DNA of 64,000 nt from an uncultured bacterium (GTDB lineage: Bacteria; Verrucomicrobiota; Kiritimatiellia; RFP12; UBA1067), in NCBI GenBank assembly GCA_902800055.1, contig CADCCW010000004.1:1-64000 (forward strand), written 5' to 3'. Shown here in pieces: positions 3,515-62,838 of the stretch; position 1 is the stretch's first letter, and every line of letters starts with the position of its first letter. The notes beneath the pieces are model-generated. The model did no database searches. It saw nothing but the letters and a program-made list of their open reading frames with translations, and was not told where the DNA came from. The translations under genes and the position numbers were made by a program.

Positions 3515-3526
3515 GCGGCAAGCACA

Positions 3527-5452: not shown

Positions 5453-5458
5453 ACAGAC

Positions 5459-39790: not shown

Positions 39791-39806
39791 AGGAAAAAAG
39801 GAGAAA

Positions 39807-40946: not shown

Positions 40947-40979
40947 AACGACAGCAAGCGTACTACAGCAAGAAAAATC

Positions 40980-42057: not shown

Positions 42058-42060
42058 ACC

Positions 42061-43065: not shown

Positions 43066-43088
43066 AACCAAGAGAAAGGAACACCAAG

Positions 43089-43796
43089 ATGAAAGAGAAG
43101 ACATTTGCATTCGCCGTCGTCGCGCTTGCCGCGACCGTCGCGCTTGCCGCGCCGAAAGCCCGCCGCGCCGCCGGCGGCGACGACATGGTCACCCAGGGCC
43201 GCGGCGCCAAGGTCCTGATCGTACAGGAGCCGCGGCTCGGGCAGGCCGCCTGCCTCACCGCGCCGTCGGTGCAGGGCGGGTCGACCGTCGGCCAGTGCTA
43301 CAAGAAGCCGCGCAAGTGGATCGTGCTCGAGACCAAGTACGACACCTTCGGCACCGAGACCTCGAAGTTCCTCGACCAGCTTACCTTCACCTGGCACGTC
43401 CTCCTGGACACCAAGAACGCCACCGAGAACAAGGGCAACAAGGAGGGGCTCGCCCCCTACAGCTACTTCACCACCGCCACGACCTATGTTAACATCCCCG
43501 CCGGCTCCCACGCCGCGAGCGTGGTGCTGCCGCCGAGCTGTCTTGAGCGCTTTGGCGATCCGCGCGCGGTAGGGCTCGAGATCTCAAACCAGAACGGCGA
43601 GATGCTCGCCGGCGACTGCTGGAGCGAGGTGAAGGGCATCGCGCCCCACACCAAGTTCTGGGAGGACCAGAAGATCATGAGCGCCGTCACCAAGGAGGGC
43701 ACGCCGATGATCGAGCGCCGCCAGGGGCTCCTCGACCGCTCCAAGACCATTTGGGCCATCGTCTTCCCCAACGACTACGAACAGGTGGCGCAGTAA
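43089..43796 (+). CDS. Amuc_1102-like secreted pilus-cluster protein
   Basis: The chosen start at 43089 is preceded by aaagga and gives a clean signal peptide (MKEKTFAFAVVALAATVALA); the same frame is open upstream only as a shadow of kdsD. The mature protein is about 215 residues, with KWIVLETKYDTFGTET near its start and IWAIVFPNDYEQVAQ at its end, probably all-beta. It is the first of five consecutive genes that match, in order, the Akkermansia Amuc_1102-1101-1100-1099-1098 cluster, which is the main reason for the assignment. Role in the complex is unknown; structural or minor subunit is likely. Identification rests mostly on context. Confidence 0.65.
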   Translation: MKEKTFAFAVVALAATVALAAPKARRAAGGDDMVTQGRGAKVLIVQEPRLGQAACLTAPSVQGGSTVGQCYKKPRKWIVLETKYDTFGTETSKFLDQLTFTWHVLLDTKNATENKGNKEGLAPYSYFTTATTYVNIPAGSHAASVVLPPSCLERFGDPRAVGLEISNQNGEMLAGDCWSEVKGIAPHTKFWEDQKIMSAVTKEGTPMIERRQGLLDRSKTIWAIVFPNDYEQVAQ

Positions 43797-43818
43797 CAAC
43801 CATTCCAACGCTTTTCCC

Positions 43819-47581: not shown

Positions 47582-47602
47582 TTTTCCGAAATAGTGTATA
47601 AT
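47574..47602 (+). promoter_or_regulatory. strong sigma70-type promoter ahead of the secretin gene
   Basis: TTGAAT at 47574-47579 and a perfect TATAAT at 47597-47602 are separated by 17 bases. The -35 box overlaps the stop of the preceding gene and the start codon is 32 bases beyond the -10 box. The secretin and the second giant protein can therefore be transcribed separately from the upstream pilus genes. Confidence 0.75.
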
Positions 47603-47634
47603 TCTTCAACATACCCAAGGAATAGGCAGAAGCA

Positions 47635-50600
47635 ATGACGAATACGAAAAAAATTCTCGCCCTGGGCGCGGCCGTCGCCCTTGTCTCGTGCGCCAGTTTT
47701 GTCTCGGCGCAGGACGATCTCGACGCGCTGCTGAAAGACCTGGAGTCGGAGACTCCGGCCGCCGAAGCAGAGGCTGCGAAGCCAGCCGAAGCGGAGCCAG
47801 CGCCAGCAGAGGAAGCGGCGCCAGCCGCGGAGGAGGCGCCGGCCCCGGAATCTCCGGAAGCTCCGGAAGCTGAAGAGGCGCCAGCCCCGGAAACTCCGGA
47901 AACTCCGGAAGCTCCGGAGGAAGAGGAGGCTCCTGCCGAGGAGGCGCCGGCCCCGGAATCTCCGGAATCTCCGGAGGCCGCCGAAGAGGCGCCAGCCGCG
48001 GAAACTCCGGAATCTCCGGAAACTCCGGAGGAAGAGGAGGCTCCTGCCGAGGAGGCGCCAGCCGCGGAAACTCCGGAATCTCCGGAAGCTGAAGAGGCCG
48101 CCCCGGAATCTCCGGAAACCCCGGACATCCCGGCCGCTCCTGCCCAGGCCGCCGACGCCACCAAGGAGAAGGACGAGCTGCTGGAAAACATCATCACCGC
48201 CGAGACCAACCGTCGCCTGCAGCGCGATGTCCAGGCTCGCAAGGAGATGAACGAAGCGCGCCTCTGCATGAAGACGGAGGAGTATCTCGAAGCTGAAAAG
48301 CACTATTCCACCGCCGAGAAGCTGCTGGGCGACATTCCCGCCAACAAGGCGCTGCGCAAGGAGTGCGTCCAGGGTTCGGGCGAGGCGTTCCTCCGCGCGG
48401 CCAAGCAGGAACTTGCGCTGGGGCAGGACGAATTGGCGCTGGAGCATTTGCAGAAGGCGATTGACCGCGGCCATCCCAAGGCCCGCCGCCTGATGGAGAG
48501 CTGGAAGGCTGAGGGCGTTGGCTTCAAGGGCACGCCCGGCGACAAGATCTCCAAGATGGTCCGCCACCGCCGCAACGACCCCGACTACAAGTACGAGCGC
48601 GAGCACATCCGCCGCCTGCTGCTCCGCGGCACCCACCACCTCGGCGTCGGCGACCTGGACAAGGCGCTAGAGGACGTCGAAACCGTGCTCGTCAACGACA
48701 AGTACAACGTCGAGGCGATTCGTCTGCGGAAGGCGATCATCGCCCGCCGCGCGGCGGTGCTGCAGCAGGAGCGCGTGCCCGCGCGCGCCGGGATGATCGC
48801 CGACGTCGACGAGGCGTGGCGCCCGGTCTACGCGGTCAATGCGGCCTCCCTCAGCGAGGGCGCGGCCGAGACGGTCAAGTCCTCGGCCGGCGACGACCCC
48901 GAGCGCACCACCGAGCAGGAGATCATCGAGCGCATGAAGGCGATCCGTTTGCCGGAGATCAAGTTCAATCCGCCGGCGACGATCATGGACGCGGTGCAGT
49001 TCTTCATCCAGGCGTCGAAGGACTACGACAACCCAGAGCTCCCGCCGGACCAGCGCGGCTTCAACTTCTACCTCCGCCCGCGGGAACAGCTGACGGCGGC
49101 CACCGAGCAGCCCGAGGAGGCCAACGACTTCTCCTCCACCGGCGAGGAGGACGAGAACGCGCAGGACACCCACGGCCTCGCCCCCATCCCCACCATCTCC
49201 GCCAACAACATCTCCTTCTACGAGGCGCTGAAGCTGGTCTGCGACTCGGTGGACTACAAGTTCATCGTGCGCGGCTCGATCGTGATGGTGATGCACAAGG
49301 ACATGTCCACGTCCGAGATCCTCGCGCGCAAGTACAACGTGCCCGAGTCGTTCATCGAGCGCGTCTCCTCCGCCTCCGACGAGATCAAGACGATGGGCGG
49401 CGGCTTTGGCGCCAGCGGCTCGAACAACTCGAGGAAGCGCGACGACGCGGAGGAATCCCCCGACCAGGACTGGAAGGCGTTCTTCTCCGAGATGGGCGTG
49501 CAGTGGCCCGAGGGCTCGTCGATCAAGCACATCAAGTCGCTCGGCAAGCTCTACGTGCGCAACACCCGCGAGAACCTCGCCGAGTTCGAGAAGGTGCTCG
49601 ACGAGCTCGGCGGCCAGCCGCAGCTCATCGAAATCGAGACGCGGTTCGTGGAAGTCTCGCAGGAGGATCTCAACTCGCTTGGCTTCGAGTGGATCCTCAA
49701 CGACAACTACACCTTTGGCCTTGGCCGCCACGTCGGCAAGTGGATCGGACTGCATGACGCCGACTTCATCTCCAATACAACCGACGGCGACATAACCCAG
49801 AGCTACACCTACAACGCCGACGGCACCGTCAACACCATCACCACCCACACCGAGCCCGGCTCCGTCTCCAAGAGCTGGCAGCGGCTTGACACGTCTGCCA
49901 TGCGCGACTCGGTGATGGCAGGCAAGACCCCGGTACCCCGCTGGGGCAAGAAGCAGATTGGCGTCAACGCCTTTGGCGGCACTTCCGAATACGGCAACGG
50001 CAGCCGCTACCTCTCCACCGAGGGCAACCACATCTCCGGCGAGGGCAAGAGCACCAATGACCAGTTTATGCGCTTCAACGCGTTCCTCGGCGATGCGGAC
50101 CTCTCGATGATCCTCCACATGCTCTCGCAGCGCAGCGACACCGACCTCCTCTCCGCCCCCAAGGTCGTCACCCAGTCCGGCCAGCAGGCCGTCATCAAGG
50201 TCGTCACCGAGTTCATCTATCCGCAGGACTACGACGTGCAGCTCCAGTCGTCGAGCTCGAGCTCCGGCCATTCGTCCGGCGGCTCCCAGTCGGCCATTCT
50301 CGCCGTCGTCGAGCCCCAGAACTTCACCATGCGCGAGGTGGGCGTCATCCTCGACGTCACCCCGACCTACTCCGAGGCCAACGGCGGGTCGATCGACCTT
50401 GAGCTCAAGCCGCAGGTCGTGGACGACCCGATCTGGAAGAACTACGGCATGAAGATTCCGTTTACCGGCAACAGCTCGCTCCAGAACTTCGAGGGCCTGG
50501 GCGAGATCTTCACCGGCCTGAGCGAGATCTTCAACTCGCTCGGCACCGCGATTCCGACCGCCACCAAGGCGGCGCTCGCCCAGACGGCGATGGACTCCGC

Positions 50601-50964
50601 CGACGACGCGCTCCAGAAGCTTGCGACCTCCGGCGACAACATCACCTACTACGACGCCCCGATGGAGCAGCCGTTCTTCCACGTCCGCTCGATCGAGTCC
50701 AAGGTCTCGATCACCCCGGGTGCGACGGTGGTCATGGGCGGGCTCATCACCGAGAACCGCAAGGCGATGGACGACAAGGTGCCGTTCCTCGGCGACCTGC
50801 CGTTCATCGGCCGGCTCTTCCGCTCGCATGCCGAGAAGACGGTCAAGCGCAACCTGCTGGTGTTCGTCACTGGGCGCCTGATTACGCCAGCCGGCCGCGA
50901 GCTGAAGGTCAACGAGCTTAGCGCCGAAGAGACAGAAGTCAAGGCGGCCCCCAAGGCGGAGTAA
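47635..50964 (+). CDS. secretin, Amuc_1098-like outer-membrane channel protein
   Basis: The 1,109-residue protein has a signal peptide (cut after FVSA, or a lipobox at LVSC), then an acidic Pro/Glu/Ala region (residues ~36-172) encoded by 9-bp repeats, then a helical TPR-like region (~190-370). Secretin N-type domains follow: one near 429 (IIERMKAIRLPEIKF), one near 519 (PTISANNISFYEALK), one near 640 (LYVRNTRENLAEFEKVLDEL). The C-terminal secretin barrel runs from ~836 (LLSAPKVVTQSGQQAVIKV) to VPFLGDLPFIGRLFRS near 1049. It should form a multimeric outer-membrane pore. It has its own promoter and is followed 34 nt later by a giant secreted protein. The long acidic region is unusual for a secretin. 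Confidence 0.92.
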   Translation: MTNTKKILALGAAVALVSCASFVSAQDDLDALLKDLESETPAAEAEAAKPAEAEPAPAEEAAPAAEEAPAPESPEAPEAEEAPAPETPETPEAPEEEEAPAEEAPAPESPESPEAAEEAPAAETPESPETPEEEEAPAEEAPAAETPESPEAEEAAPESPETPDIPAAPAQAADATKEKDELLENIITAETNRRLQRDVQARKEMNEARLCMKTEEYLEAEKHYSTAEKLLGDIPANKALRKECVQGSGEAFLRAAKQELALGQDELALEHLQKAIDRGHPKARRLMESWKAEGVGFKGTPGDKISKMVRHRRNDPDYKYEREHIRRLLLRGTHHLGVGDLDKALEDVETVLVNDKYNVEAIRLRKAIIARRAAVLQQERVPARAGMIADVDEAWRPVYAVNAASLSEGAAETVKSSAGDDPERTTEQEIIERMKAIRLPEIKFNPPATIMDAVQFFIQASKDYDNPELPPDQRGFNFYLRPREQLTAATEQPEEANDFSSTGEEDENAQDTHGLAPIPTISANNISFYEALKLVCDSVDYKFIVRGSIVMVMHKDMSTSEILARKYNVPESFIERVSSASDEIKTMGGGFGASGSNNSRKRDDAEESPDQDWKAFFSEMGVQWPEGSSIKHIKSLGKLYVRNTRENLAEFEKVLDELGGQPQLIEIETRFVEVSQEDLNSLGFEWILNDNYTFGLGRHVGKWIGLHDADFISNTTDGDITQSYTYNADGTVNTITTHTEPGSVSKSWQRLDTSAMRDSVMAGKTPVPRWGKKQIGVNAFGGTSEYGNGSRYLSTEGNHISGEGKSTNDQFMRFNAFLGDADLSMILHMLSQRSDTDLLSAPKVVTQSGQQAVIKVVTEFIYPQDYDVQLQSSSSSSGHSSGGSQSAILAVVEPQNFTMREVGVILDVTPTYSEANGGSIDLELKPQVVDDPIWKNYGMKIPFTGNSSLQNFEGLGEIFTGLSEIFNSLGTAIPTATKAALAQTAMDSADDALQKLATSGDNITYYDAPMEQPFFHVRSIESKVSITPGATVVMGGLITENRKAMDDKVPFLGDLPFIGRLFRSHAEKTVKRNLLVFVTGRLITPAGRELKVNELSAEETEVKAAPKAE
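47843..48126 (+). repeat. 9-bp minisatellite (tccggaatc/tccggaaac) in the secretin gene
   Basis: The core ccgga recurs at exact 9-base steps in runs of two to four (for example 47845, 47854, 47863; 47887, 47896, 47905, 47914; 48007, 48016, 48025), separated by GAGGAGGCTCCTGCC-type spacers. It encodes repeated PES/PET/PEA triplets. Nested repetition suggests repeated slippage or recombination with the frame preserved. Confidence 0.9.
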
Positions 50965-50998
50965 ATCCGACTCCCGGGCCGTCGGGAAGGAGGCGGCG

Positions 50999-53900
50999 AT
51001 GACTGGAAAATTTTTCGGATCCGCGAGAGGCGGGCTGGTCGCAGTCCTGTGCGCAGCGTTTGCGCAGGTCGGCGTGGCTGGCTACACTGTCCAAGTCACG
51101 GCGGGGTACGACAAGGACAAGGGCACCGTCTCGGCGGTCAAGCTGCCGTCCACCGGAGGCAAGGTCGAGTCTACCGTCAGCGTGTACCTCTCCTCGGATG
51201 CGGATTCCGCCGTAATCAAGGCCGTTCCCGCCAACGGCTACCGGTTTGACGAGTGGATGCTGACCGCAATCTACGGCAACGCCTGCACCACTTCCTTCGT
51301 AAGCGCCGCGGAGCATACGATAAAATACTCCGACTACTCCCAGCTGGCGGGGTTGACCATCGTCCAGTGCCTCGCGGCGTTTTCCGGAAAAGACGTTGCG
51401 GTCAACCTCGACGCCAACATCGCCTCGGGCCACGTCTCGCCCGGCCGCGTCTCCTGCGTCTTCGGCGAGGAGTATCCCGTCCTGCCCACGCCGACCGCGA
51501 CGGGGATGAAGTTCCTCGCCTGGTACGATTCGCCAATGGGCGGCAACCTGGTGGAGCCCGGCAAGACCGTCGTTGCGGATTCGCGCGAGCACACCCTCTA
51601 CGCCTACTGGGAGCCGATGAAGTACACGGTCACGCTTGACCCCGGCGAAGGGGAGATCGAGTCCGGCTCGGCGGCGTTGACCGTCACCTACGGCGACAAG
51701 TACCCGACCCTGCCGGTGCCAGTCCGGGACCGCTACGACTTCGTCGGCTGGTTCACCGCGCCCGTCAACGGCAAGGAGGTGTCGGCCGGCGACGTGGTGG
51801 CGATAACCAAGGACGCCACCCTCTACGCCCGCTGGCAGATCAAGGAGTCGGAGATCGAATACACGATTGCGCTCGACGGCTGCGGCGCGACGAAGCCGGG
51901 GACGAGGAGTGTGCTCCTGAAGAAGGGCACCCAGATCGAGGGCATCGTCCTCCCGGAGCGGACCGGCTACACCTTTGCCGGCTACTGGTCGGCGCCGGAG
52001 GGGTCCGGCGTCCAGTACGTGAAGCCGGACGGCTCGCCCGACCAGGCTTGGGAAGGTTCCGCCGACGCGACCGTCTACGCCGCGTGGACGCCGAACACCT
52101 ACTCTGTCCACTACTTCCCGAACGGCGGCGTGGGGTCGGTCGTCACCACCAATGTGCAGTACGACGCCACGTTCAGGCTCGCCGGGGAACTCTTCTCGCG
52201 TCTCGATGGCGCCACTTTCGTTGGTTGGTATTTCAGCGACGGCTCCGGCGAGTTTTCGTCTGGTGCGTCGGTGGTCAACCTTGCTACCTCCGGGTCGGTA
52301 AGTCTGCTGGCCAAGTGGGAGCCGCTTGCCGACGCGCTTAACGCGAGCGGAATCTGCAGCGATCTCGTGGTGGACACTTCCGCCGGCGAGCAGGCGTGGC
52401 GCGTAGTGGACATCGGCGTCCCCTGCCTGATGAGCGGCACGCTCAAGGAGGGGAAGCCCTCCTCCGAGCTGAAGGCGGAGGTCTCCGGCCAGGGCACGAT
52501 TTCCTTCTCGTGGTGTGCAGTCGGCACCGCATCCAATGCGTATTTCCAAGTCGGCGACGGCGCCGAGGGGTACTCCCGCATCGACTTCCCAGGGCCGCTC
52601 GGGCTCGGAAACTGGCAGCAGGCGACAAAGACCCTTGACCGGGCGGCATACGCCGCTTCCGGCGGCGTGCTGGTCTGGCGGACCTTGCTGTACCATGAAG
52701 AACCGTCGCACGTCATTGTCGACCACACGCTGTACGTCAAGGACGTCGTCTGGAAGCCGGACGGCTGCAGCAAGGTCGTCTTCAACCTGAACGCCGGTGC
52801 CGCCGACGTGGTGTTCGGCGGCGGCGACTCCATGACGGTGCCGCACGGATCGAGGTATGGTGACATTCCCGATCCCGTGCGCAGTGACCGGCAGTTCGTG
52901 GGGTGGACGACGAACGGCGTCGCGTCTGGGGTGATCGATCCCGCGACGACCGTCGTCTTGCCGGCCGACCATGCGCTGACCGCGCTCTGGGACGTTGAGC
53001 ACATGGGGGCGCTGGTGCCCGATGCGGAGTTTTCGGGCGCGGACGGCATCTACGACTACGACGGTAGCGGCCATACGATAAATGTGGCGGCGCTCAAGGC
53101 GGCGTTCAAGGGCTATGACGGCGTCACCTTCGCGTATGCCACCTCCAGCATCGGCCCGTGGTCCGCGACGCCTCCCCAGCAGACTCGTCCCGGAAGCTTG
53201 GTCACGCATTACCAGGCTTCCGCCGAGGGATACGACAGCTACTCCGGGTCGGCCACGGCAAGCGTAGTCTACCAGCAAAAGGTCGTGGTCAAGGTCATGG
53301 GCCGTTCAAAGTCCGTTCTCTACGACGGCACCGAAAAGGCGATTTCGGGATACGACCTTGAAATTCAGAATGACAGCGGACTTTATTCTGCGGTGGATTT
53401 TTCCTTCACCGGCGTCTCAAGCCTCGCGGAGACCGGCGTCGGAGTCTATCGCTACGGACTTTCCCCGCGGCAGTTCGTCAACAAGAACCGCCATTTTACG
53501 GACATCGTTTTCGAGATCGTAGCCGACGGTTGTCTCGAGATCGAGCCCGTGGCGGAACTGACGGTTAATGAGCATATAGTCAAGCTCAACCGCGGGGCTG
53601 CGGTGGACGACAAGTACGGCGCGTACTTTTCCCTTCTCTCCGATCGGCTGGTAAAGTCGGCGACGGCGTCCGGCCTGCCAGCCGGCGTCAGCCTCGAGAA
53701 GGTCTCCGAAGGGTTCGTCTTGGTCGGCAAGCCGACCGAGACTGGAGCATTCGACACCGCGCTGGCGTTTACACTCGCTGACGGCACAGTCCTTGACGAT
53801 GAAATCCGCTTCCTCGTCGACGACGGCGCGGGCAAGTATGCCCTCGCGCCCGCCGCCGGGTTCGCCGGCGCCGATGTGACGGCGGTGTACGACGGCGCCG

Positions 53901-56900
53901 CGCACACAATCGACGCTGACGCCATCGTCGCTGCCTACGCGGTGTACGGCGGTGCAGCGGTCAAGTATTCCAACTCGAGCTCTGGTCCTTGGTCGTTGAC
54001 GCCGCCCGCCCAGACTGCGCCGGGCAGTCTCAAGACGTTTTACCGCGTCTCCGCGGAAGGGTATTCCGACGTCACCAACTCGGCCACGGTCACGGTGACG
54101 CGCAAGTACATGGTCACGCTGGATCCCGGCGAGGGCAAGTTCAAGGGCGACAACATCATCGTGGTGGACCACGGCGCGAAGTACCCGGCGCTCCCCGAGC
54201 CGACCCGCGACCGCTACGACTTCCTGGGCTGGTTCACTTCTGCGTCCGGCGGCACGCAGGTCTCCGCCGGCGACGTCGTGGAGCTTGCCGGCGATACGAC
54301 GCTCTACGCGCATTGGCAGCTCATGGCTCCCGAGGTCGAGTACGACGTCACGCTCGACGGCTGCGGCGCTACGAAGCCGGGAACGGAGAGCGTGCGGCTG
54401 AAGCAGGACACGAAGATCGAGGGGATTGCGCTTCCCGAGAAGACCGGCTACGCCTTTGACGGCTACTGGTCGGAGCAGGGCGGAACTGGAAAGCGCTATG
54501 TCAAGCCAGACGGATCGCCAGACCGCGAGTGGGATGGTGCCGCGGGAACGACGGTCTACGCCGCGTGGAAGCCAAACACCTACAAGGTCCACTACTTTGC
54601 GAATGGCGGGCTGGGGCCGGTCGAAACCCAATCCGTGCAGTATGATACCGCGTTCAGTCTCCTTCGCAACCCGTTCACCAATTCCAACAACGTCTATTTT
54701 GTGTGCTGGAGCCTTGCGGACGGCTCGGCAAGGTACAATCAGGGAACGAGCGTCAGCAACCTCGTTGCCGCCGGCGATGTCTGCTTTTGGGCGGAATGGG
54801 GTCAGCCGCTGGACCCGTCCGGGCCGATTCCGGCGGGCTACAGCCGGGTGGCGTTTGGCCTCAACGACGGCGGTGCCGGGGCGCAGTTCGACGGCTGTTC
54901 GCTGATTGTGCCGCACGGGGTGTGCTACGGGGACATCCCCGATCCCGAGTGGGACGGACACGACTTCCTGGGCTGGACGACGAACGGCGTCATGTCTGGC
55001 ATTGTCGACCCCGAGAACACCGCGGTGCTGAGCGTCGACCATTCCCTGATTGCGCTCTGGACGGCGACAGGCGTCGACGTGCTTGCGCCCGCCGCGGGAT
55101 TTGTGGGGGCGGACGTAGAGTACAGCTACGACCGGGTTGGGCATTCCATCGACGTCGACTACCTTGCAAGTGCGTTCTCCGCCTACAAGGGCGTGACAAT
55201 CGCCTATGCCCGTTCCCTCGCTGGGCCGTGGGACGCCAATCCGCCGCTGCAGACGAACGCTGGTAGCCTGGCCACCTACTATCGGGTTCAGGCCAATGGA
55301 TACGCCGACTACACCGGCTGCTCCACCGTCAAGGTCTCGGCTCCTTCGAAGGTCACGGTCAAGATAACGGGTCCCTCGGCGACCTTCCGCCACGACGGCA
55401 CCGAAAAGACGCTTGCCGGATTCAATCTGGAAATCGAGAACGGCTTTGGCGTATATTCCGTATCCGACCTTGAGTTTTCCGGGGTCTCCAACCTGACCCA
55501 AAGTGCTGCGGGAGTCTACCGCTACGGACTTTCTGCCGACCAGTTCGCCAACAAGAACGGCAGCTTCAAGGATGTTGTCTTTGAAATCGTCGCCGACGGC
55601 ACGCTTACGATTCTGCCTGATGATGAATTGCGAGTGTCCGGTCAGATCGAGAAACTACCCCGCAACCAGGCGGTGAAGTCCGACGTTGGCACGTACTTCT
55701 CCGTCGTTTCCGGCAAGCTGGTGAAGTCGGCGACCGCGTCTGGTCTCCCGGCCGGCGTCCGCCTTGAGCAGGGTGCCGACGGATTCTTCCTTGCTGGCGC
55801 TCCGACCCAGACCGGCGCGTTTGACGCGACGCTCGTCTTTACTCTGGAGGATGGAACGGTTGTCTCCGGCGGAATCCGCTTCCTCGTCTCCGATGGCAAT
55901 GGTCAATATACCCTCGCGCCAGTCGCTGGGTTTGCCGGCGCCGACGTGACGGCGGAGTACGACGGCGCCGCGCACACGATCGACACCGATGCCATCGTCA
56001 CCGCGTATTCGGCGTATGGCGGTGCAACGATCAAGTATTCCAACGCGAGCACCGGTCCGTGGTCGCTGACGCCGCCTGCCCAAGCCGGGCCAGGCAGTCT
56101 TAAGACGTATTACCGCATCTCTGCGGAAGGGTATTCCGATATCACCGCCTCGGCCACGGTCACGGTAACGCGCCACTACAAGGTTACGCTCAACCCGGGT
56201 GAGGGGCGGCTTCTCGGTGATGATGTAGTTGTCGTGGAGCATGGCGGGAAATACCCGGAACTACCACAGCCGGCGCGCGACCGTTATGACTTCAATGGAT
56301 GGTGGACAACTGCTACCGGCGGCACGCAGGTCAAGAAAGATGATGGAGTTAACCTGTCCGGCGATACAATGCTCTACGCGCATTGGACGCTTAATCGAGT
56401 TGACTATACCGTTACGCTTGACAATCGCGGTGCAACGAGGCCTGGCACTCAGAGCCTGATTGCGCAGACTGATTCGGAGCTTGGCGGAATTGAACTGCCC
56501 AAGCGAACCGGCTACACCTTCGGTGGCTACTGGTCGGAGCCTAACGGAACTGGGAAGTGCTATATCTCGTCGAATGGACTTGCCGTCGCCAAGTGGGGCA
56601 GCACCTCCAACGAGACCATCTACGCCCATTGGACTCCGAATATCTACAAGGTTTACTATCTCCCCAATGGCGGAATTGGCGCGCCTTGTTCAGACGAGTT
56701 TACCTATGGCGTCCAGGCCGGCCTTGCTTCAGGAAATATTTTTGGCGAGCCGCCGGGTAGGCATTTCTTGGGGTGGCAGTTCCCCGATGGATCAGCGTCG
56801 AATGTAGCTGTCGTTGTCAGCAATCTTTATCTGCTGGCCAAGTGGAGTGAGGTCGACGAGCTCAACCAGAGTGGAGTCTGCCGCAATTTGTCGGTAACAA

Positions 56901-59900
56901 CAACATCCGATTTTGAAGGGAATGCGTGGAGCGTGACCAATGTCATGGTTAATGGTTCTAACATTACATGTCTGGTTAGTGGTGCAACTCGATCTGATAA
57001 ATACTCTGATTTAACGGCGACGGTTATTGGATCTGGGAGAATTGAATTTTCATGGTGTGCTACTGGGGTTTCCATTAGTAACAAACGCTTTTTCACAGAC
57101 GCCCAGAATTATATTTATTATAATGGTGGTTTGGGTTTTGACGGAGGGACCAATGTAACTCGTCAGATATTAGATGGTGCCACCTTTACCTGGCGAAAAG
57201 CATTCATCCCTTATCTTGGCGATCCAGATGGAGATAATCACGCCCTTTATCTTACCAGGGTTAATTGGATTCCTGATGGGAAATATGAGATCACCTTTGA
57301 CCTTGGAGTTGCCGGCGCTGGTGCGGCATTTGCCCGTGGCATGAGGAGCATGACAGTTGGGTTGGGAGAAACATACGGCGACATCCCCGATCCTGAATGG
57401 GCAGGACACAAATTCGTTGGTTGGACAACTAACGGCGTTGAATCGGGGATATTGATCAATCCTGCGACTACGGCTGTCCTCGCGGCTGATCATACGCTGA
57501 CTGCGCTCTGGGAGGATGCTGAGGTGGTTGCGCTCGAGCCTGCCGCCGGATATCCCAGCGCCGATGTCGAATATGCCTATGATGCCAACGTGCCAAACCG
57601 CACAATCAACACGAACGCACTTGCCGCCGCGTTTTCGAAATACGATGATGTGACGTTCATGTATTCTGACTCGCCGAATGGTCCCTGGTCTGCTTCGCCG
57701 CCAGCAGTGAATAGTCTTGGCAGCCTTACCACCTACATCAAGGCGTCCGCCGCCGGCTACGAGGACTACGTTGGTTCCGCCAGCGTCAAGGTTATTTGGG
57801 ACAAGAAAGTGGTGGTGACGATTACTGGACCTTCGGCGGCGTATGACTTTGACGGCAGCGAGAAGATGCTGGCCGGCTTCGAGGTGGCGATTTCCGGCGG
57901 CGGCGGGCTTTATACTGAGACCGACTTCTCGTTCAACGGCATTTCCAATTGCGTTGGGACCGCAGCCGGCGAGTACGCCTATATCCTTGAGCCTGGGCAG
58001 TTCTTGAACCTGAATCCGTATTTCTCCGATGTCGTCTTCAGAATTGCCTCAAGCGGGCGGCTTTCCATCCTGCCCGTGTCGCTTGTCCCCGGCGCTGGAT
58101 TTGCCGGTGCCGACGCCGAGTACAGCTACGATGGCAGCGGCCGCGTGATTAACACCAATGCGCTTGCCGCGGCGTTTGCCGGGCGTGGCGGGGTGGCGAT
58201 TTCGTATGCCGCTTCGCCGGACGGCCCCTGGACCGTGGCGGCGCCGGAGTTGTTCGGGGTCGGCAGCGCCGTTACCTACGTCAAGGCGTCGGCCGATGGA
58301 TGCGAGGATTTTGTCACTTCCGCCGTCGTCAGGGTAGTCTGCGACTCGCCGGTGGTCGTTAAGATAACCGGTCCGTCGAAGTCCTGCTACTATGACGGCA
58401 ACGTTAAGACCGTTTCCGGGTTCGGCATTGAGATGCCCGGCTGGGAAGACCTCTACCCGGTGTCAGCCATCCAGTTCTCGGGCATCTCCAACTTGACCGA
58501 GTCCGCCGTCGGCGAATATGCGTATGGACTCGATGCCAGTCAGTTCGCCAACCTCGACCCCGACTTCACCGATGTTTCGTTTGAAATCGTCTCGGACGGA
58601 GCGCTGGAGATTCTGCCGCAGCCGCATCTGGCCATGACGGCGGCCGCCTTTGATTTGGAGCAGGGAAAGAACGTTGACTCTTCGCTCGGCGCGTATTTTT
58701 CCTTCTCCACCCCCTCTAACCGCCCGGTAAGTTCCTACGCCGTCGCGGGACTCCCGCCCGGAGTCGCCGTCTATGAGCAGTCAGGCGGCTACGTCCTTGC
58801 CGGCGCGCCGTCGCGGGCCGGCGCCTTCGACGCAACCTTCCGCTTCGTCCTTTCCGACGGCGTGGTGCTCTCCGGCGTCGCGAAGTTCCGCGTCCACGGT
58901 CCCGAAGCCGGCCCCAAGCAGTTTGTCCCCGGCGACAGCCTCGCCGACGTCGGCGGCGTATATGCCTACGATGGCACTGGCTGCACAATCGACACCAACG
59001 CGCTTGCCGCGGCGTTTGCCGTGGACGACGTGGCGTTCGAGTATTCCGCCTCTACTAACGGTCCTTGGTCCGCCACCCCGCCGGTGCTTGACGGGATAGG
59101 CGGACTTACCACCTACATCAAGGTGTCGGCCGACGGCTACGAGGACTTCGTCACTTCCGCCGACATCGCGGTGTTCCACGACGCCAAGGTGCTGGTGAAG
59201 ATTACCGGGCCTTTGGCGGAACACACCTACGACGGAAACGGCAAGTCGCTCTCCGGCTTCGAGGTGGAGATCGAAGACGAGTATGGGCTTTACTCCGCGG
59301 CAGATTTCTCCTTCGACGGATGCTCCAACCTTACCGCGTCCGCCGTCGGCGAGTACTCCTATGGGCTCAAGCCGGAGCAGTTCGCCAACCTCAATCCGGA
59401 CTTCTCCGACGTCGTCTTCAGGATTGTCTCGGACGGCCGCCTCTCCATCCTGACGCCTGCGGTCACGCCGCTCGCCCCCGCGGCGGGATTCGCCGGCGCC
59501 GACGCCGAGTTTAGCTACGACGGCACCAGCCGCACGATCGACACTAACGCGCTTGCCGCGGCGTTCCCCGGGGCGGCGCTCGCGTATGCGGCCTCGCCGG
59601 ACGGCCCCTGGACTGCGGCGGCGCCGGAGCTCTTCGGGGTTGGCAGCCTCGTTACCTACGTCAAGGCATCTGCCGAAGGGCGCTCCGACTTCGTCACCTC
59701 CGCCGTCGTCAGGGTCGTCTGCGATTCGCCGGTGGTTGTCCGGGTGTACGGCCCCTCGAAGACGTGCTACTTCGACGGCGACGAGAAGACGCTCTCCGGG
59801 TTCGAGGTTGAGATTTCCGGAGGCTATGGACTTTATTCGGCGCACGCATTCAGGTTTGAAGGCGTTTCCAATTTGACGGAGACCGCCGTTGGCGAATACA

Positions 59901-62254
59901 CGTATGGACTGAAGCCCGGTGATTTCGCCAACCACGACTCCGACTTCACCGACGTCTCGTTTGAGATCAAGTCCGATGGGCGGCTGGAGATCCTCGCCGG
60001 TCCGGAAGTCAAGTTCGTGAAGTCTGAGTTTGACCTTGAGCTGAAGCAGCCGGTCGACTCCAAGTACGGCGCGTTCTTCACCGTCGACTCCGACCGGCCG
60101 GTTGCGTCCGGCGTGGCGCGTGGCCTTCCCGCCGGAGTTTCTCTGACCAAGCGTTCGGATGGCAAGTTCGTTCTTTCCGGGGCGCCTTCGGAGACCGGCA
60201 ACTTCGAGGCGACGCTTGAGTTCTCGCTTGCCGACGGCACCGCCTTCTCCGGCTCCGCGACCTTCCGGGTCGAGAACCGCGAGGTCGAGCCGAAGCACCT
60301 TGTCCCTGCGGCGGGGTTCGCCGGCGCCGATGTGACGGCGGAATACGACGGCGCCGCGCATACGATCGACACCAACGCGCTGGCAGCGGCGTTCGCGGAA
60401 TACGGCGGCGTGAAGCTCGAGTACGCCGCCTCGCCGAACGGACCATGGTCGGTTGCCGCGCCTGCGTTCGCGGGGCCGGGGAGCGTCGTTGTCTACTGCC
60501 GCGCCTCCGGCGACGGCTACGACGTGTTCACCACCTCTGCCGTCGTCAGGGTGGTTTGTTCCGCTCCCGTGACCGTGAAGGTGACGGGACCGTCGAAGAC
60601 CTACGTTTTTGACGGGACGGCGAAGCGGCTCTCCGGGTTCGCGGTGGAGATCTTGGACGGCAGCGGACTCTACACCGTGGGCGACTTCTCCTTCTCCGGC
60701 AAGTCCAACCTCGTCGCCACTGCGGCAGGGGTCTACGTCTATGGACTCAAGCCCGGGCAGTTCGCCAACCGGAACGCCTACTTCTCCAACGTCGCCTTTA
60801 AGATTGTTTCCGACGGGCGGCTGGAGATTGAGGAACGCGAAGAGCCCGAGCCTGCCTTGGGGCCGCTTTGGTCCGACGACGGCGACTACGACGGTTCCGC
60901 CGTGCGCACCTACGACGGCTGGGCGATGGCCGCCGACGGTTCGCTGGCTGCCGTCATCCAGGTCAAGGCGTCCAAGTTGAGGGCCAAGACCGTCACCGAC
61001 CGGGCGACCAAGGTGAAGACGAAGGTCACCAGCTCTTCCGTCACTGCGACGGTCAACAACGGCGGCACCAAGAAGCTGAAGTACACCAAGGGCGTGGGTG
61101 ACGAGACGGGCGAAGTAACCGGGCTTGTCTGCACCGCCAAGGGTGCCGCGGTCGAGTCGTTTGGCGTCACGCTGGGCGCGGACAACCTCTATGGCGAATG
61201 GGGAGGATATGAGATCTTCGGCGCCCGCAACGGCATGGGCGTCAAGGGGGACAAGATGGCGGCGGCGCTCGAGTCCTACCGCGGCGACTGGACGATCGTG
61301 CTTACGAATGCTGCCGGCACGACAAGTCTCCAGCTCACCGTTGGCGCACGCGGATCCACCAAGATTTCCGGCGTCGCCGCAGGCGGTCTCAAGGTCAATG
61401 CCAAGGTCCAGGCCGTGATGGGCGAGGACGGTCTCTACATTCCCTATCTTGCCGCTCTCAAGCGAGGGTCAACTTCGTATGTCGCCAGCCTGCTGGTCAG
61501 GCTTGCCCCCGATGGGTCGATTGACGTTGTCGCCTCCAGCCTTGGGGCGCTTGCAGACAGCCATGGCGGCACCGAGCCCATTGTGATCAGCCCTGTCATC
61601 GAGACCGGCGACGGGGCCGGCGTCTCGCTGGAGCAGGGGGCGACGCTCAAGCTCTCGGTCGGCATTGCGCAGCGGATTTCGCTGGGCGTGGAGGGGCAGG
61701 CAGGCGTCGCGACCACGCTCAAGGCCAAGGGACTGCCTAGCGGGCTTAGGCTGGTGAAGTCGAAGACTGCCGACGCAAGCGGCGCTTCTGTGACGGCGTA
61801 TGCGATCGAGGGAGTGCCCAAGAAGGCGCAGGCCGCGAAGCAGGTCGTCCTTACGGCGAGCAACAAGTCGAAGTGGAAGGGAGAGTTCGCGTTCAACATC
61901 GAGGTGGTGGCGCTTCCCGCCGCGGCGGTCGGCGCCTACAGCGGGTTTGTCGCGGCCGCAGACGATGCGGAGACCGCCGGCGCGTTCACGCTGAAGCTTA
62001 CCGCCGCCGGCAAGATCACGGGCAACTTCACCCTCGCCGGCAAGCGGGTTGCGTTCAAGGCCGCCTCGCTCGACCGGATCGAGGAGGCGACCGGCGGATT
62101 CGTCGCGAAGATCTCGTACAAGCTGAACGGGGTGCAGTATGCCGACGACGAGATCCTGATTGCGCTGGATCCGGACGAAGGTGTGTATTGCGCGGCGCTG
62201 TTGTCCGCTCCCTCCGGAGTGCTGGCGGAGGCGGTCGCGTACAGGGGGCGTTGA
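50999..62254 (+). CDS. giant secreted repeat protein (3,751 aa): Listeria-Bacteroides repeats, MBG-like and Ig-like domains
   Basis: A ribosome site (aaggagg) precedes ATG 50999; the signal peptide ends near GVAG. Listeria-Bacteroides (Flg_new/InlB-B-like) repeats follow, recognisable by RDRYDFVGWFTAP, DATLYARW, RTGYTFAGYWS and TVYAAW. MBG-like domains (YDYDGSGHTI; LYDGTEKAISGYDLEI; GVYRYGLSPRQFVNKN) and Ig-type domains (ATASGLPAGVSLE) alternate with them. Two lectin-like inserts lie at ~52330-52760 and ~56860-57270. The last ~470 residues (from ~60850) form a different, Lys/Thr/Gly-rich beta domain ending LAEAVAYRGR. No anchor motif was seen. Adhesion or surface coating is likely. It follows the secretin gene by 34 nt with no terminator, so the two are probably co-transcribed, and its stop overlaps coaE. 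Confidence 0.85.
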   Translation: MTGKFFGSARGGLVAVLCAAFAQVGVAGYTVQVTAGYDKDKGTVSAVKLPSTGGKVESTVSVYLSSDADSAVIKAVPANGYRFDEWMLTAIYGNACTTSFVSAAEHTIKYSDYSQLAGLTIVQCLAAFSGKDVAVNLDANIASGHVSPGRVSCVFGEEYPVLPTPTATGMKFLAWYDSPMGGNLVEPGKTVVADSREHTLYAYWEPMKYTVTLDPGEGEIESGSAALTVTYGDKYPTLPVPVRDRYDFVGWFTAPVNGKEVSAGDVVAITKDATLYARWQIKESEIEYTIALDGCGATKPGTRSVLLKKGTQIEGIVLPERTGYTFAGYWSAPEGSGVQYVKPDGSPDQAWEGSADATVYAAWTPNTYSVHYFPNGGVGSVVTTNVQYDATFRLAGELFSRLDGATFVGWYFSDGSGEFSSGASVVNLATSGSVSLLAKWEPLADALNASGICSDLVVDTSAGEQAWRVVDIGVPCLMSGTLKEGKPSSELKAEVSGQGTISFSWCAVGTASNAYFQVGDGAEGYSRIDFPGPLGLGNWQQATKTLDRAAYAASGGVLVWRTLLYHEEPSHVIVDHTLYVKDVVWKPDGCSKVVFNLNAGAADVVFGGGDSMTVPHGSRYGDIPDPVRSDRQFVGWTTNGVASGVIDPATTVVLPADHALTALWDVEHMGALVPDAEFSGADGIYDYDGSGHTINVAALKAAFKGYDGVTFAYATSSIGPWSATPPQQTRPGSLVTHYQASAEGYDSYSGSATASVVYQQKVVVKVMGRSKSVLYDGTEKAISGYDLEIQNDSGLYSAVDFSFTGVSSLAETGVGVYRYGLSPRQFVNKNRHFTDIVFEIVADGCLEIEPVAELTVNEHIVKLNRGAAVDDKYGAYFSLLSDRLVKSATASGLPAGVSLEKVSEGFVLVGKPTETGAFDTALAFTLADGTVLDDEIRFLVDDGAGKYALAPAAGFAGADVTAVYDGAAHTIDADAIVAAYAVYGGAAVKYSNSSSGPWSLTPPAQTAPGSLKTFYRVSAEGYSDVTNSATVTVTRKYMVTLDPGEGKFKGDNIIVVDHGAKYPALPEPTRDRYDFLGWFTSASGGTQVSAGDVVELAGDTTLYAHWQLMAPEVEYDVTLDGCGATKPGTESVRLKQDTKIEGIALPEKTGYAFDGYWSEQGGTGKRYVKPDGSPDREWDGAAGTTVYAAWKPNTYKVHYFANGGLGPVETQSVQYDTAFSLLRNPFTNSNNVYFVCWSLADGSARYNQGTSVSNLVAAGDVCFWAEWGQPLDPSGPIPAGYSRVAFGLNDGGAGAQFDGCSLIVPHGVCYGDIPDPEWDGHDFLGWTTNGVMSGIVDPENTAVLSVDHSLIALWTATGVDVLAPAAGFVGADVEYSYDRVGHSIDVDYLASAFSAYKGVTIAYARSLAGPWDANPPLQTNAGSLATYYRVQANGYADYTGCSTVKVSAPSKVTVKITGPSATFRHDGTEKTLAGFNLEIENGFGVYSVSDLEFSGVSNLTQSAAGVYRYGLSADQFANKNGSFKDVVFEIVADGTLTILPDDELRVSGQIEKLPRNQAVKSDVGTYFSVVSGKLVKSATASGLPAGVRLEQGADGFFLAGAPTQTGAFDATLVFTLEDGTVVSGGIRFLVSDGNGQYTLAPVAGFAGADVTAEYDGAAHTIDTDAIVTAYSAYGGATIKYSNASTGPWSLTPPAQAGPGSLKTYYRISAEGYSDITASATVTVTRHYKVTLNPGEGRLLGDDVVVVEHGGKYPELPQPARDRYDFNGWWTTATGGTQVKKDDGVNLSGDTMLYAHWTLNRVDYTVTLDNRGATRPGTQSLIAQTDSELGGIELPKRTGYTFGGYWSEPNGTGKCYISSNGLAVAKWGSTSNETIYAHWTPNIYKVYYLPNGGIGAPCSDEFTYGVQAGLASGNIFGEPPGRHFLGWQFPDGSASNVAVVVSNLYLLAKWSEVDELNQSGVCRNLSVTTTSDFEGNAWSVTNVMVNGSNITCLVSGATRSDKYSDLTATVIGSGRIEFSWCATGVSISNKRFFTDAQNYIYYNGGLGFDGGTNVTRQILDGATFTWRKAFIPYLGDPDGDNHALYLTRVNWIPDGKYEITFDLGVAGAGAAFARGMRSMTVGLGETYGDIPDPEWAGHKFVGWTTNGVESGILINPATTAVLAADHTLTALWEDAEVVALEPAAGYPSADVEYAYDANVPNRTINTNALAAAFSKYDDVTFMYSDSPNGPWSASPPAVNSLGSLTTYIKASAAGYEDYVGSASVKVIWDKKVVVTITGPSAAYDFDGSEKMLAGFEVAISGGGGLYTETDFSFNGISNCVGTAAGEYAYILEPGQFLNLNPYFSDVVFRIASSGRLSILPVSLVPGAGFAGADAEYSYDGSGRVINTNALAAAFAGRGGVAISYAASPDGPWTVAAPELFGVGSAVTYVKASADGCEDFVTSAVVRVVCDSPVVVKITGPSKSCYYDGNVKTVSGFGIEMPGWEDLYPVSAIQFSGISNLTESAVGEYAYGLDASQFANLDPDFTDVSFEIVSDGALEILPQPHLAMTAAAFDLEQGKNVDSSLGAYFSFSTPSNRPVSSYAVAGLPPGVAVYEQSGGYVLAGAPSRAGAFDATFRFVLSDGVVLSGVAKFRVHGPEAGPKQFVPGDSLADVGGVYAYDGTGCTIDTNALAAAFAVDDVAFEYSASTNGPWSATPPVLDGIGGLTTYIKVSADGYEDFVTSADIAVFHDAKVLVKITGPLAEHTYDGNGKSLSGFEVEIEDEYGLYSAADFSFDGCSNLTASAVGEYSYGLKPEQFANLNPDFSDVVFRIVSDGRLSILTPAVTPLAPAAGFAGADAEFSYDGTSRTIDTNALAAAFPGAALAYAASPDGPWTAAAPELFGVGSLVTYVKASAEGRSDFVTSAVVRVVCDSPVVVRVYGPSKTCYFDGDEKTLSGFEVEISGGYGLYSAHAFRFEGVSNLTETAVGEYTYGLKPGDFANHDSDFTDVSFEIKSDGRLEILAGPEVKFVKSEFDLELKQPVDSKYGAFFTVDSDRPVASGVARGLPAGVSLTKRSDGKFVLSGAPSETGNFEATLEFSLADGTAFSGSATFRVENREVEPKHLVPAAGFAGADVTAEYDGAAHTIDTNALAAAFAEYGGVKLEYAASPNGPWSVAAPAFAGPGSVVVYCRASGDGYDVFTTSAVVRVVCSAPVTVKVTGPSKTYVFDGTAKRLSGFAVEILDGSGLYTVGDFSFSGKSNLVATAAGVYVYGLKPGQFANRNAYFSNVAFKIVSDGRLEIEEREEPEPALGPLWSDDGDYDGSAVRTYDGWAMAADGSLAAVIQVKASKLRAKTVTDRATKVKTKVTSSSVTATVNNGGTKKLKYTKGVGDETGEVTGLVCTAKGAAVESFGVTLGADNLYGEWGGYEIFGARNGMGVKGDKMAAALESYRGDWTIVLTNAAGTTSLQLTVGARGSTKISGVAAGGLKVNAKVQAVMGEDGLYIPYLAALKRGSTSYVASLLVRLAPDGSIDVVASSLGALADSHGGTEPIVISPVIETGDGAGVSLEQGATLKLSVGIAQRISLGVEGQAGVATTLKAKGLPSGLRLVKSKTADASGASVTAYAIEGVPKKAQAAKQVVLTASNKSKWKGEFAFNIEVVALPAAAVGAYSGFVAAADDAETAGAFTLKLTAAGKITGNFTLAGKRVAFKAASLDRIEEATGGFVAKISYKLNGVQYADDEILIALDPDEGVYCAALLSAPSGVLAEAVAYRGR
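51440..53000 (+). repeat. Listeria-Bacteroides repeat block 1 with lectin-like insert
   Basis: Repeats end in YAYW (~51605), YARW (~51830), YAAW (~52085), LAKW (~52315) and TALW (~52985). A domain of about 140 residues starting ALNASGICSDLVVDT sits before the last one. Two corresponding repeat blocks follow at about 54105 and 56180. Confidence 0.8.
54105..55065 (+). repeat. Listeria-Bacteroides repeat block 2
   Basis: Four repeats closely follow block 1: VTLDPGEGKFKGDN, RDRYDFLGWFTSASGG, DGCGATKPGTESV, VHYFANGGLGPVET and the WTTNGVMSGIVDPENT end. The lectin-like insert of block 1 is missing here. Confidence 0.8.
56180..57510 (+). repeat. Listeria-Bacteroides repeat block 3 with lectin-like insert
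   Basis: VTLNPGEGRLLGDD, RDRYDFNGWWTTATGG, RTGYTFGGYWSEPNG and VYYLPNGGIGAP are followed by an insert similar to that in block 1 (LNQSGVCRNLSVTTTSD) and a closing WTTNGVESGILINPAT. The insert is strikingly AT-rich compared with the rest of the gene. Confidence 0.8.
56860..57300 (+). other. low-GC patch inside the second giant gene
   Basis: About 440 bases contain runs such as aattatatttattataatgg while the flanking gene is GC-rich. The reading frame is unbroken and the protein domain here has a GC-rich counterpart at ~52330-52760. Confidence 0.8.
57520..60835 (+). repeat. MBG-like and Ig-like tandem domains
   Basis: Five MBG-like domains of ~180 residues start near 57520, 58080, 58920, 59465 and 60300. 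Each has a GAxFAGADxxYxYDGxxxxI-type start, SPDGPWTV-type SxNGPWS segment, and a YDG-G-FEVEI half. Ig-type domains with GLPPGVAVYEQSGG (58740) and GLPAGVSLTKRSDG (60120) sit between pairs. Confidence 0.75.
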
Positions 62255-62838
62255 TGCGTTTTGCGTTGACCGGCGGAATAGCGTGTGGCAAGTCGCTCGC
62301 GGCGAAGATGCTCAACGACCTTGGCGTCGAGACCATTGACGCCGACGATCTCGTCCACGAACTTCTGCCCGACCCCGCCGAGCGGCGCCGCATCGCCGCG
62401 GAGGTCTTTGCCGACCCCGAGAAGCGCCGCGCGCTCGAGCGCGAGCTCCATCCCCAGGTGCGCTCTCGCCTCTTCGCGTGGCTGGACGAACCCCGCGCCG
62501 CCTCCGCGCCTCCGCGCGTCGCAGTCGTCCCGCTTCTCTACGAAGCCGGCTGGGAAGGGGACTTTTCCCTCGTCGGCTGCGTCGCCTCCACGCGCGAGAC
62601 GCAGCTCAAGCGCATGACCGCCCGGCGCGGCTATTCGCGCGAAGAGGCGCTTGCCCGCCTCGCGGCGCAGCTGCCGGTGGAGGACAAGGCCGCGCGCGCC
62701 GACTTCGTCATCCGCAACGACGGCTCCGTCGAGGACCTCTGCGCCGGCGTCCGCGCCTTCGCAGAAACTATCCGGGAATTCAACACACGCGGCGAAAAAA
62801 ATGGTATAATTCGCGATATGCTGAAAGGAGCAGAGTGA
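62254..62838 (+). CDS. coaE: dephospho-CoA kinase
   Basis: The 194-residue protein begins MRFALTGGIACGKSLAAKML with the P-loop GGIACGKS, followed by DLGVETIDADDLVHELL, ELHPQVRSRLFAW, VAVVPLLYEAGWE and RRGYSREEALARL. It adds the final phosphate in coenzyme A synthesis. Compared with the usual family pattern the segment between DADDLVHELL and EVFADPEKRRALE is about 25 residues shorter. The start overlaps the giant gene's stop (TGATG), so translation is probably coupled. The C-terminal tail (GEKNGIIRDMLKGAE) overlies a promoter and the ribosome site for the next gene. Confidence 0.9.
   Translation: MRFALTGGIACGKSLAAKMLNDLGVETIDADDLVHELLPDPAERRRIAAEVFADPEKRRALERELHPQVRSRLFAWLDEPRAASAPPRVAVVPLLYEAGWEGDFSLVGCVASTRETQLKRMTARRGYSREEALARLAAQLPVEDKAARADFVIRNDGSVEDLCAGVRAFAETIREFNTRGEKNGIIRDMLKGAE
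62802..62810 (+). promoter_or_regulatory. extended -10 promoter inside the 3' end of coaE
   Basis: TGGTATAAT provides an extended -10 element with a perfect TATAAT at 62805-62810. No good -35 box is visible at the right distance. It would drive the leucine-rich-repeat gene starting 30 bases later. Confidence 0.55.

Follow-up and report, generated by a model that had tools for sequence, protein, structure and literature searches.

The window analysed here is the whole stretch of 64,000 nucleotides, and the feature under study is its second giant gene (gene 2), located between a secretin gene and a gene which we take to be coaE, for dephospho-CoA kinase, named from its sequence. The gene 2 protein matches PF09479 in 12 stretches with 286 bits against a curated cut-off of 27. 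Its N-terminus, judged by eye, looks like a signal peptide and the product is probably an exported, adhesin-like protein; a Pfam scan of its C-terminal region returned no match. The relevant features are as follows.

43819..45441, + strand: pilM (PF11104), opening a stretch with greater divergence and lower GC3 here than in the close relatives G012 and G075
47635..50964, + strand: secretin gene (PF00263), across which G012 and G075 remain similar as far as 51001, at the gene 2 start codon
50999..62254, + strand: gene 2, 3,751 aa; Listeria-Bacteroides (InlB-type) repeats arranged in three related super-units, with two JR domains and an array at the C-terminus
51623..52318, + strand: unit 1 repeats (a 51623-51835, b 51860-52087, c 52100-52318)
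52319..52765, + strand: JR1, GC-rich beta-sandwich domain copy of unit 1
52772..52990, + strand: WTTNGV module of unit 1, GC3 0.86
54107..54799, + strand: unit 2 repeats a, b, c
54800..54844, + strand: JR-less site of unit 2, a short linker similar, by eye, to both JR ends
54845..55060, + strand: WTTNGV module of unit 2, GC3 0.86
56177..56845, + strand: unit 3 repeats a, b, c, GC3 0.60, 0.67 and 0.57
56846..57280, + strand: JR3, AT-rich beta-sandwich domain copy of unit 3
57287..57511, + strand: WTTNGV module of unit 3, GC3 0.53
60824..62251, + strand: C-terminal region of gene 2, 51% identical to the G012 gene over 342 columns
62254..62838, + strand: next gene (coaE), whose ATG overlaps the gene 2 stop by one base

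JR1 and JR3 are in register within the repeated super-unit; unit 2 is devoid of JR but carries the third WTTNGV module. Each copy stands after a Listeria-Bacteroides repeat and before a WTTNGV module, as described in the original prediction.

Extent of the AT-shifted tract

The compositional contrast between the two domain copies, on which that prediction was built, was confirmed: GC is 0.44 in JR3 (0.46/0.48/0.38 at the three codon positions) and 0.66 in JR1 (0.64/0.48/0.85). The 450-base segment starting at 56851 has the lowest GC of 424 such segments in the 64 kb and is the sole one at or below 0.44. In 12 other 20-kb genome stretches, this value is reached by 24 of 1572 segments, all within two of these stretches (L084 and L091). 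The tract was delimited as follows.

56174..57728, + strand: whole AT-shifted tract of unit 3, with shoulders of GC3 0.60 and 0.55 on either side of the core
56930..57287, + strand: AT-rich core, GC3 0.33 (56948-57286 with GC3 0.30 by change-point analysis)

With a lighter penalty, change-point analysis yields GC3 values of 0.66 (55403-56947), 0.30 (56948-57286), 0.55 (57287-57727) and 0.81 beyond; a heavier penalty leaves 0.66 (55403-56893) and 0.44 (56894-57718). The unit 3 modules around JR3 are AT-shifted at third positions relative to units 1 and 2, over about 1.55 kb and most strongly in JR3. At codons of identical residues in modules a, b, c, W and f, 62 changes from GC to AT and 15 from AT to GC are counted going from unit 2 to unit 3, against 23 and 18 going from unit 1 to unit 2. 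The residues of the shoulders are host-like and the shift there is limited to third positions. Among the fitted models, strict steps at module edges (AIC 1365-1369) perform no better than a smooth V centred at about 57116 with a scale of 381 bp (AIC 1365). The only steps to beat the V (AIC 1352) lie at edges picked after the change-point result, and a step restricted to JR is the poorest of the non-flat models (AIC 1385). The first 85 bases or so of JR3 are less AT-rich than the remainder. The right compositional edge coincides with that of JR; since the shoulders are shifted as well and the JR-only step fits worse, the anomaly is not confined to the domain. The term 'insert', applied to it originally, is not supported, as JR3 and JR1 hold matching positions in a repeated unit and the paralogous modules flanking JR3 are AT-shifted as well.

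The JR domain and its relatives

Two predicted models of JR have pLDDT values of 76 and 78. Z scores to several jelly-roll families are 9-13, the Foldseek hit of best E-value having a TM score of 0.48. The predicted fold of JR1, built from 4 sequences only (mean pLDDT 78), resembles the MAM, cleaved-adhesin and CBM35 jelly rolls: it aligns with the C-terminal domain of VesC (Z 12.7, rmsd 3.2, 127 aligned), the MAM domain of meprin beta (Z 10.5, rmsd 3.4, 126 aligned), CBM35 (Z 10.0, rmsd 3.1, 116 aligned) and the gingipain Kgp K1 adhesin domain (Z 10.0, rmsd 3.1, 124 aligned). It differs from them in being 10-16% identical in the fold matches and in having no notable Pfam match; weak hits scattered over unrelated families were all that a Pfam scan of nine JR copies gave, the best of them in a single copy (E 0.0018). 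To judge from the predicted fold, JR is a candidate jelly-roll-type domain, probably binding a glycan or protein partner.

The genome itself (61 contigs totalling 2.29 Mb, completeness 90%) was searched with JR1, and only JR1 and JR3 match at E<=0.001; a nine-sequence JR profile gives 4 matches. The two copies are 39% identical (53 of 135 aligned residues), in agreement with the earlier view that they are not recent duplicates and excluding 'recent' duplication followed by drift. The best copy per genome was also taken from 29 of the 45 other genomes that have a profile match (one copy contains an in-frame TGA). Domain minus flank GC3 in this control averages -0.017 (SD 0.070, minimum -0.18), while JR3, at 0.39, lies between flanks of 0.67 upstream and 0.70 downstream. 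JR3 is therefore an outlier against 29 flank-following copies, and an inherent AT-richness of the domain can be discarded as an explanation. The FYMINK/GARP ratio is 1.09 for JR3, 0.53 for JR1, 1.44 and 1.35 for the copies of the AT-rich genomes G016 and G025, and 0.95 and 0.85 for those of the GC-rich G012 and G075; the high values of the latter two render the residue argument soft.

A single clade unites JR1 and JR3 with the copies of G016 and G025 (support 95/94 and 92/95 in two trees); its longest branch is that of JR3 (1.96). The pairing of JR1 with JR3 is the best arrangement in a 31-row tree, with a support of only 35/45; this tree comprises 28 control copies, JR1, JR3 and one further copy from the same genome, the copy with the in-frame TGA (L036) being excluded. 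A 12-row tree rejects neither JR1+JR3 (p 0.24) nor JR3+G025 (p 0.41). In the 31-row tree, the grouping of JR1 and JR3 with G012 and G075 is not rejected either (p 0.39), and the JR tree alone is without conflict with the species order.

A divergent gene between conserved flanks

Identity to G012 by blastn amounts upstream to 93.2% (4325-20970), 87.6% (24073-39955) and 95.8% (39955-42021), then to 85.8% at both 42059-47843 and 48166-51001, and downstream to 91.3% from 62269. Inside gene 2, a single G012 match is found (69% at 60863-61503) and none with G075, whose similarity ends at 51001 and restarts at 62263. The following gene, coaE, is 89-91% identical at the protein level to its G012 and G075 counterparts, and these two genomes have the first 2.3 kb or so of their own gene in common at 83% DNA identity. 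Among close relatives, the locus carries a divergent gene placed between conserved flanks.

Lower GC3 is not limited to gene 2. The value for pilM is 0.909 here against 0.980 and 0.989 in G012 and G075, and the remaining genes as far as the secretin gene are lower here too. The divergent 3' end of gene 1 behaves likewise (0.912 against 0.957 and 0.970), whereas ackA (0.968 against 0.951 and 0.974) and pta (0.948 against 0.945 and 0.951) are not lowered. The genus does include low-GC members: the secretin gene has a GC3 of 0.36-0.56 in 5 of the 45 genomes. For each genome, the longest ORF lying no more than 1500 bases from the secretin end was taken; 2 of 45 genomes have none, and several are cut by contig ends. 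Where an InlB-type gene directly follows the secretin gene, its GC3 is below that of the secretin gene in 10 of 10 genomes, AT-rich ones included. This points to a general trait of a fast-evolving gene, not to import. Within gene 1, GC3 correlates weakly with the identity to G012 (rho 0.19, p 0.015 for 172 few-gap blocks; rho 0.09, p 0.23 for all 190), and blocks of 45-77% identity still average a GC3 of 0.87. The gene 1 trough at 21443-22043 was considered as an insertion and dropped, as the unit around it is missing from G012 and G075 is gapped at this position.

The two ends of gene 2 have different affinities. The N-terminal 130 aa match G016 (58 bits) and G025 (55 bits) and none of 7 other genomes compared, and in the corresponding tree this genome (G000) joins these distant AT-rich genomes with a support of 98/96. 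The species grouping of G000 with G012 and G075 is rejected (p-AU 0.009), in a test on few taxa that was picked after the scores had been seen and in which G000 and G032 are long branches. A concatenated N-terminus and JR1 tree of five rows separates G000, G016 and G025 from G012 and G075 (100/100); having no outgroup, it also holds G000, G012 and G075 against G016 and G025 (75/73) and is little informative. The C-terminus matches G012 (289 bits), G075 (47 bits) and none of 7 others compared. Since the N-end goes with G016/G025 and the C-end with G012, gene 2 is, to judge from sequence affinities, a chimera. Its history departs from that of its neighbours, gene 2 having for the most part no DNA similarity to its positional counterparts and an N-end related to distant AT-rich genomes. 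The original prediction of separate origins or recent acquisition is thereby partly supported; for the domain copies themselves, the JR tree, in which their pairing is not rejected, gives no support to separate origins.

Origin of the AT-rich unit

The reading we favour, about evenly poised between right and wrong, is that gene 2 is a modular, hypervariable gene of adhesin-like type which recombination has remade, its AT-rich unit coming from a lower-GC relative. Recombination with related bacteria would swap the gene or blocks of modules, aided by the internal repeats. Unit 3, with JR3, would have been supplied by a member of the group with lower GC (GC3 is 0.41 and 0.35 in the G016 and G025 counterparts). 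The shoulders would have become intermediate because the repeated modules were converted by GC-rich paralogues, JR itself being hardly convertible because unit 2 lacks it and JR3 and JR1 are only 39% identical.

Local drift in place, a serious rival, is possible but doubtful. JR3 would then be an old in-gene duplicate in a weakly constrained, fast-evolving part of the gene, where the pressure maintaining a GC3 of about 0.9 (codon selection or GC-biased gene conversion) has lapsed and mutational AT bias prevails, in the core more than in the shoulders. GC-biased gene conversion requires alignable partners. The register of JR3 with JR1, the host-like residues of the shoulders, the smooth V equalling module-edge steps in fit, the long JR3 branch, the 10 of 10 lower post-secretin genes and the weak gene 1 correlation all fit such drift. 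It is opposed by JR1, equally diverged yet of GC3 0.85, by the high GC3 of divergent gene 1 blocks and by the other JR copies tracking their flanks; the differing affinities of the gene 2 ends require recombination regardless. The earlier reading, an insertion of JR3 alone from an AT-rich organism, is improbable: the core stops at the domain end, its composition is similar to that of the G016 and G025 copies and one score places the G025 copy (58.9 bits) slightly closer than JR1 (55 bits), but the AT-shifted shoulders, the poor JR-only step, the less AT-rich start of JR3 and its register with JR1 are against it. A chimeric contig is very improbable, for although repeats favour misjoins in a metagenome-assembled genome of 61 contigs at 90% completeness, a single open frame of 3,751 aa crosses the tract and both conserved flanks belong to one locus, syntenic in G012 and G075.

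No donor of JR3 was found, its nearest relative outside gene 2 being only 42% identical. A donor outside the genus was looked for in 387 genomes drawn from the phylum, a set covering some genera only and including neither G016 nor G025; no relative was detected at E<=1e-4 besides those of the genome itself. A phage source was rejected (11 pattern matches and no relative in viral_contigs, no match in phages). The reverse transcriptase profile PF00078 has no match in the 90% complete genome (the control was positive in 3 of 14 genomes), and a search of this genome for a template of 56100-57900 retrieved only the segment itself and in-gene repeats at 69-88%. A diversity-generating retroelement target was consequently rejected, for want of a reverse transcriptase match and of a near-identical template repeat.

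Comparable systems are known. SZO08560 of Streptococcus zooepidemicus is reported to be a large surface protein bearing PF09479 repeats, which one lineage has and of which another retains a fragment; it has an LPXTG anchor, four repeats and an invertible promoter (PMC2654543). Gene 2 likewise encodes a large protein with PF09479 repeats; it differs from SZO08560 by its 12 repeats, a C-terminus devoid of Pfam match and a 34-nt gap behind the secretin gene. Like vaa of Mycoplasma hominis (PMC524362), one of the modular variable surface-antigen loci, it would be a variable gene for a surface protein that occupies a fixed position; unlike vaa, it encodes a far larger protein, its variation is seen between species and its module assortment is inferred from 5 genomes. 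Among the literature matches listed for Kiritimatiellae with InlB-type, largest/giant or recombining surface proteins, nothing bears on the locus.

The end types invite a bolder, rather unlikely proposal. In this genome, an N-end like that of G016/G025 is combined with a C-end like that of G012; G012 has the N-end it shares in kind with G075 and its own kind of C-end; G075 has that N-end with another C-half; G016 and G025 share a third C-end. The secretin-coaE interval could conceivably be an allele-exchange locus of Kiritimatiellae, N-classes and C-types assorting independently between species and GC3 troughs marking the newest imports. If so, recombination history would be readable from one genome through such troughs.

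Taken alone, the AT-rich domain is ordinary. If the recombination reading is right, a fixed locus has been located in a little-studied, mostly uncultured group, at which close relatives differ in a giant adhesin-like gene. Compositional anomalies within repeat-rich proteins could then reflect module exchange among relatives of differing GC content, and gene 2 would offer a concrete target for strain-level study of recombination and of phage or host recognition.

Architecture and base composition of gene 2

Gene 2, the giant adhesin-like gene situated between the secretin gene and coaE, encodes 12 Listeria-Bacteroides repeats (PF09479) and consists of three mutually related super-units. The module order is a-b-c-JR-W-f-g in units 1 and 3 and a-b-c-W-f-g in unit 2, where a, b and c are Listeria-Bacteroides repeats, W is the WTTNGV-bearing module and JR is a beta-sandwich domain.

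Features of gene 2
50999-62254: gene 2, 3,751 aa product
52319-52765: JR1, GC-rich copy of JR, unit 1
54800-54844: short linker at the JR position of unit 2, no JR there
56846-57280: JR3, AT-rich copy of JR, unit 3

Because the linker resembles the JR ends by eye, loss of JR from unit 2 would be the simpler reading.

GC at third codon positions (GC3) of each module in units 1, 2 and 3
a: 0.94, 0.91, 0.60
b: 0.92, 0.80, 0.67
c: 0.78, 0.74, 0.57
JR: 0.85, absent, 0.38
W: 0.86, 0.86, 0.53
f: 0.80, 0.76, 0.64
g: 0.69, 0.70, 0.72

The original prediction of an AT-rich and a GC-rich copy of one domain in this gene was confirmed by the GC3 of JR3 (0.38) and JR1 (0.85). The AT-rich copy had been regarded as an insert, which is not supported: the unit 3 modules beside JR3 are AT-shifted as well, so the shift extends over some 1.55 kb rather than being confined to JR3. 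Third positions were counted at codons with an identical residue in both units (modules a, b, c, W and f). GC-to-AT differences outnumbered AT-to-GC ones by 62 to 15 on going from unit 2 to unit 3 and by 74 to 17 on going from unit 1 to unit 3; from unit 1 to unit 2 the counts were 23 and 18. Composition models fitted over 55349-58618 were compared by AIC: 1428 for a flat model, 1385 for a JR-only step, 1365-1369 for module-edge steps and 1365 for a smooth V. Three tied levels (edges 56174, 56930, 57287 and 57728) gave 1352, an advantage over the smooth V that is not clean because the edges were picked after change-point analysis.

The AT-rich trough and the JR domain

Among 78 long ORFs from the window and 12 stretches of 20 kb of the same genome, a 420-base window with GC3 at least 0.44 under the ORF median was found in 7. 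In six of these the low window falls within 360 bases of the called ORF start, a region where we judge wrong start calls to be likely; the seventh is gene 2. The next-deepest trough (-0.40) is an inner one in gene 1, the other giant gene. At 21443-22043, GC3 there falls to 0.47 (240-base windows) against about 0.95; the sequence is unrelated to JR, its unit is absent from the alignment to the close relative G012, and no match of a second close relative, G075, covers 21629-21994. AT-rich islands (450-base windows at GC <=0.44) were also seen in two stretches of the genome, L084 (G000:C6:20001-40000; 21 of 131 windows) and L091 (G000:C16:10001-30000; 3 of 131).

JR domains from 29 other genomes track the composition of their flanks, with a lean in the same direction in G061 (-0.18), G012 (-0.16) and G014 (-0.13). 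In another genome, GC3 drops to 0.25 at about 3100-3850 of stretch L050 (G019:C143), the rest of the gene being mostly at 0.6-0.8; by eye, this part resembles a LamG-type lectin domain and may be a second AT-rich lectin-like module within a giant gene.

AlphaFold, given four sequences, models JR3 and JR1 as beta-sandwiches (mean pLDDT 76 and 78, respectively). The top solved-structure matches are jelly rolls, namely, for the JR1 model, the VesC C-terminal domain (Z 12.7), the meprin MAM domain, CBM35 and gingipain adhesin domains; a Foldseek comparison of JR3 gave a TM of 0.48 at its best E. No Pfam family fits JR. The term 'lectin-like' used originally is a fair description of the predicted fold, binding being putative. 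JR profile matches occur in 46 of the 61 genomes of the genus, this one counted; three copies carry one in-frame TGA each (G067:C10:49399-49767, G081:C46:18355-18699 and G076:C18:11459-11803), which may stem from decay, assembly error or another cause.

The secretin-coaE locus and the ancestry of gene 2

The secretin region was readable in 45 genomes, 10 of which carry an InlB-type gene, with Listeria-Bacteroides repeats, at most 34 nt after the secretin. JR is present in nine of these genes, the tenth (G006) running off its contig, and in all ten, gene 2 included, GC3 is lower than in the secretin, whether the genome is GC-rich or AT-rich. Protein identities among our genome, G012 and G075 are 98-99% for ackA and pta and 89-91% for coaE, the three names being putative assignments from sequence. 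Our genome shares 84-85% (pilM) and 85-87% (secretin) with the two relatives, against 95% between them for both proteins. For gene 2, identity is 45% over 1254 aligned columns with G012, 35% over 1517 with G075 and 52% between these two, the products measuring 3751, 1487 (G012) and 1583 (G075) residues. DNA similarity to both relatives stops at 51001, 2 bases after the A of the ATG (50999), and returns 15 (G012) or 9 (G075) bases past the first base of coaE; conservation includes the gene 2 leader and the Shine-Dalgarno-like sequence in it. All three genomes thus have secretin, InlB/JR gene and coaE in this order, the middle gene having been replaced or having diverged past recognition. The names pilN (45438-46472, no Pfam match) and pilO (46472-47578, TSP3 repeats only in Pfam) are given by position only.

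The first 130 residues of gene 2 are matched only in G016 and G025, two distant AT-rich relatives, among 9 genomes compared, and the first 207 have matches at or near full length only in the same two among 161 genomes of the order. Forcing our genome with G012 and G075 in the N-terminus tree costs 14 log units (p-AU 0.009), in a test of six rows with long branches that was chosen once scores were seen. The C-terminal 476 residues match G012 (51% over 342 columns, 289 bits) and, weakly, G075 (47 bits), with no match in G016 or G025. The genes of G012 and G075 are similar at the DNA level in their first half and not in their second. Judged from these alignments and the tree, gene 2 is a chimera; the separate origins originally proposed are shown for its two ends but not for the JR domain.

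From pilM through the secretin, our genome is more divergent from G012 and G075 and lower in GC3, ackA and pta being equal in all three. For pilM, GC3 is 0.909 here, 0.980 in G012 and 0.989 in G075; for the N-part of the secretin it is 0.812, 0.941 and 0.916, respectively. This pattern is consistent with an imported tract surrounding gene 2, but the 3' end of gene 1 behaves similarly (0.912 against 0.957 and 0.970), and faster evolution at the locus itself would have an equal effect.

Possible exchange among relatives

Gene 1 (5423-39790, 11,455 aa) and its counterpart in G012 differ by a tandem unit of roughly 3.1 kb (20971 against 24073); G075 lacks more. Between about 9 and 17 kb, 1-kb blocks reach 96-100% identity to G012, with other blocks at 70-87%, which suggests recent interspecies exchange at gene 1. 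For gene 2, drift in place within a fast-evolving gene is the less likely but serious rival. We give an even chance to exchange, in which recombination among relatives would swap gene 2 and its modules and the AT-rich unit would come from a lineage of lower GC.
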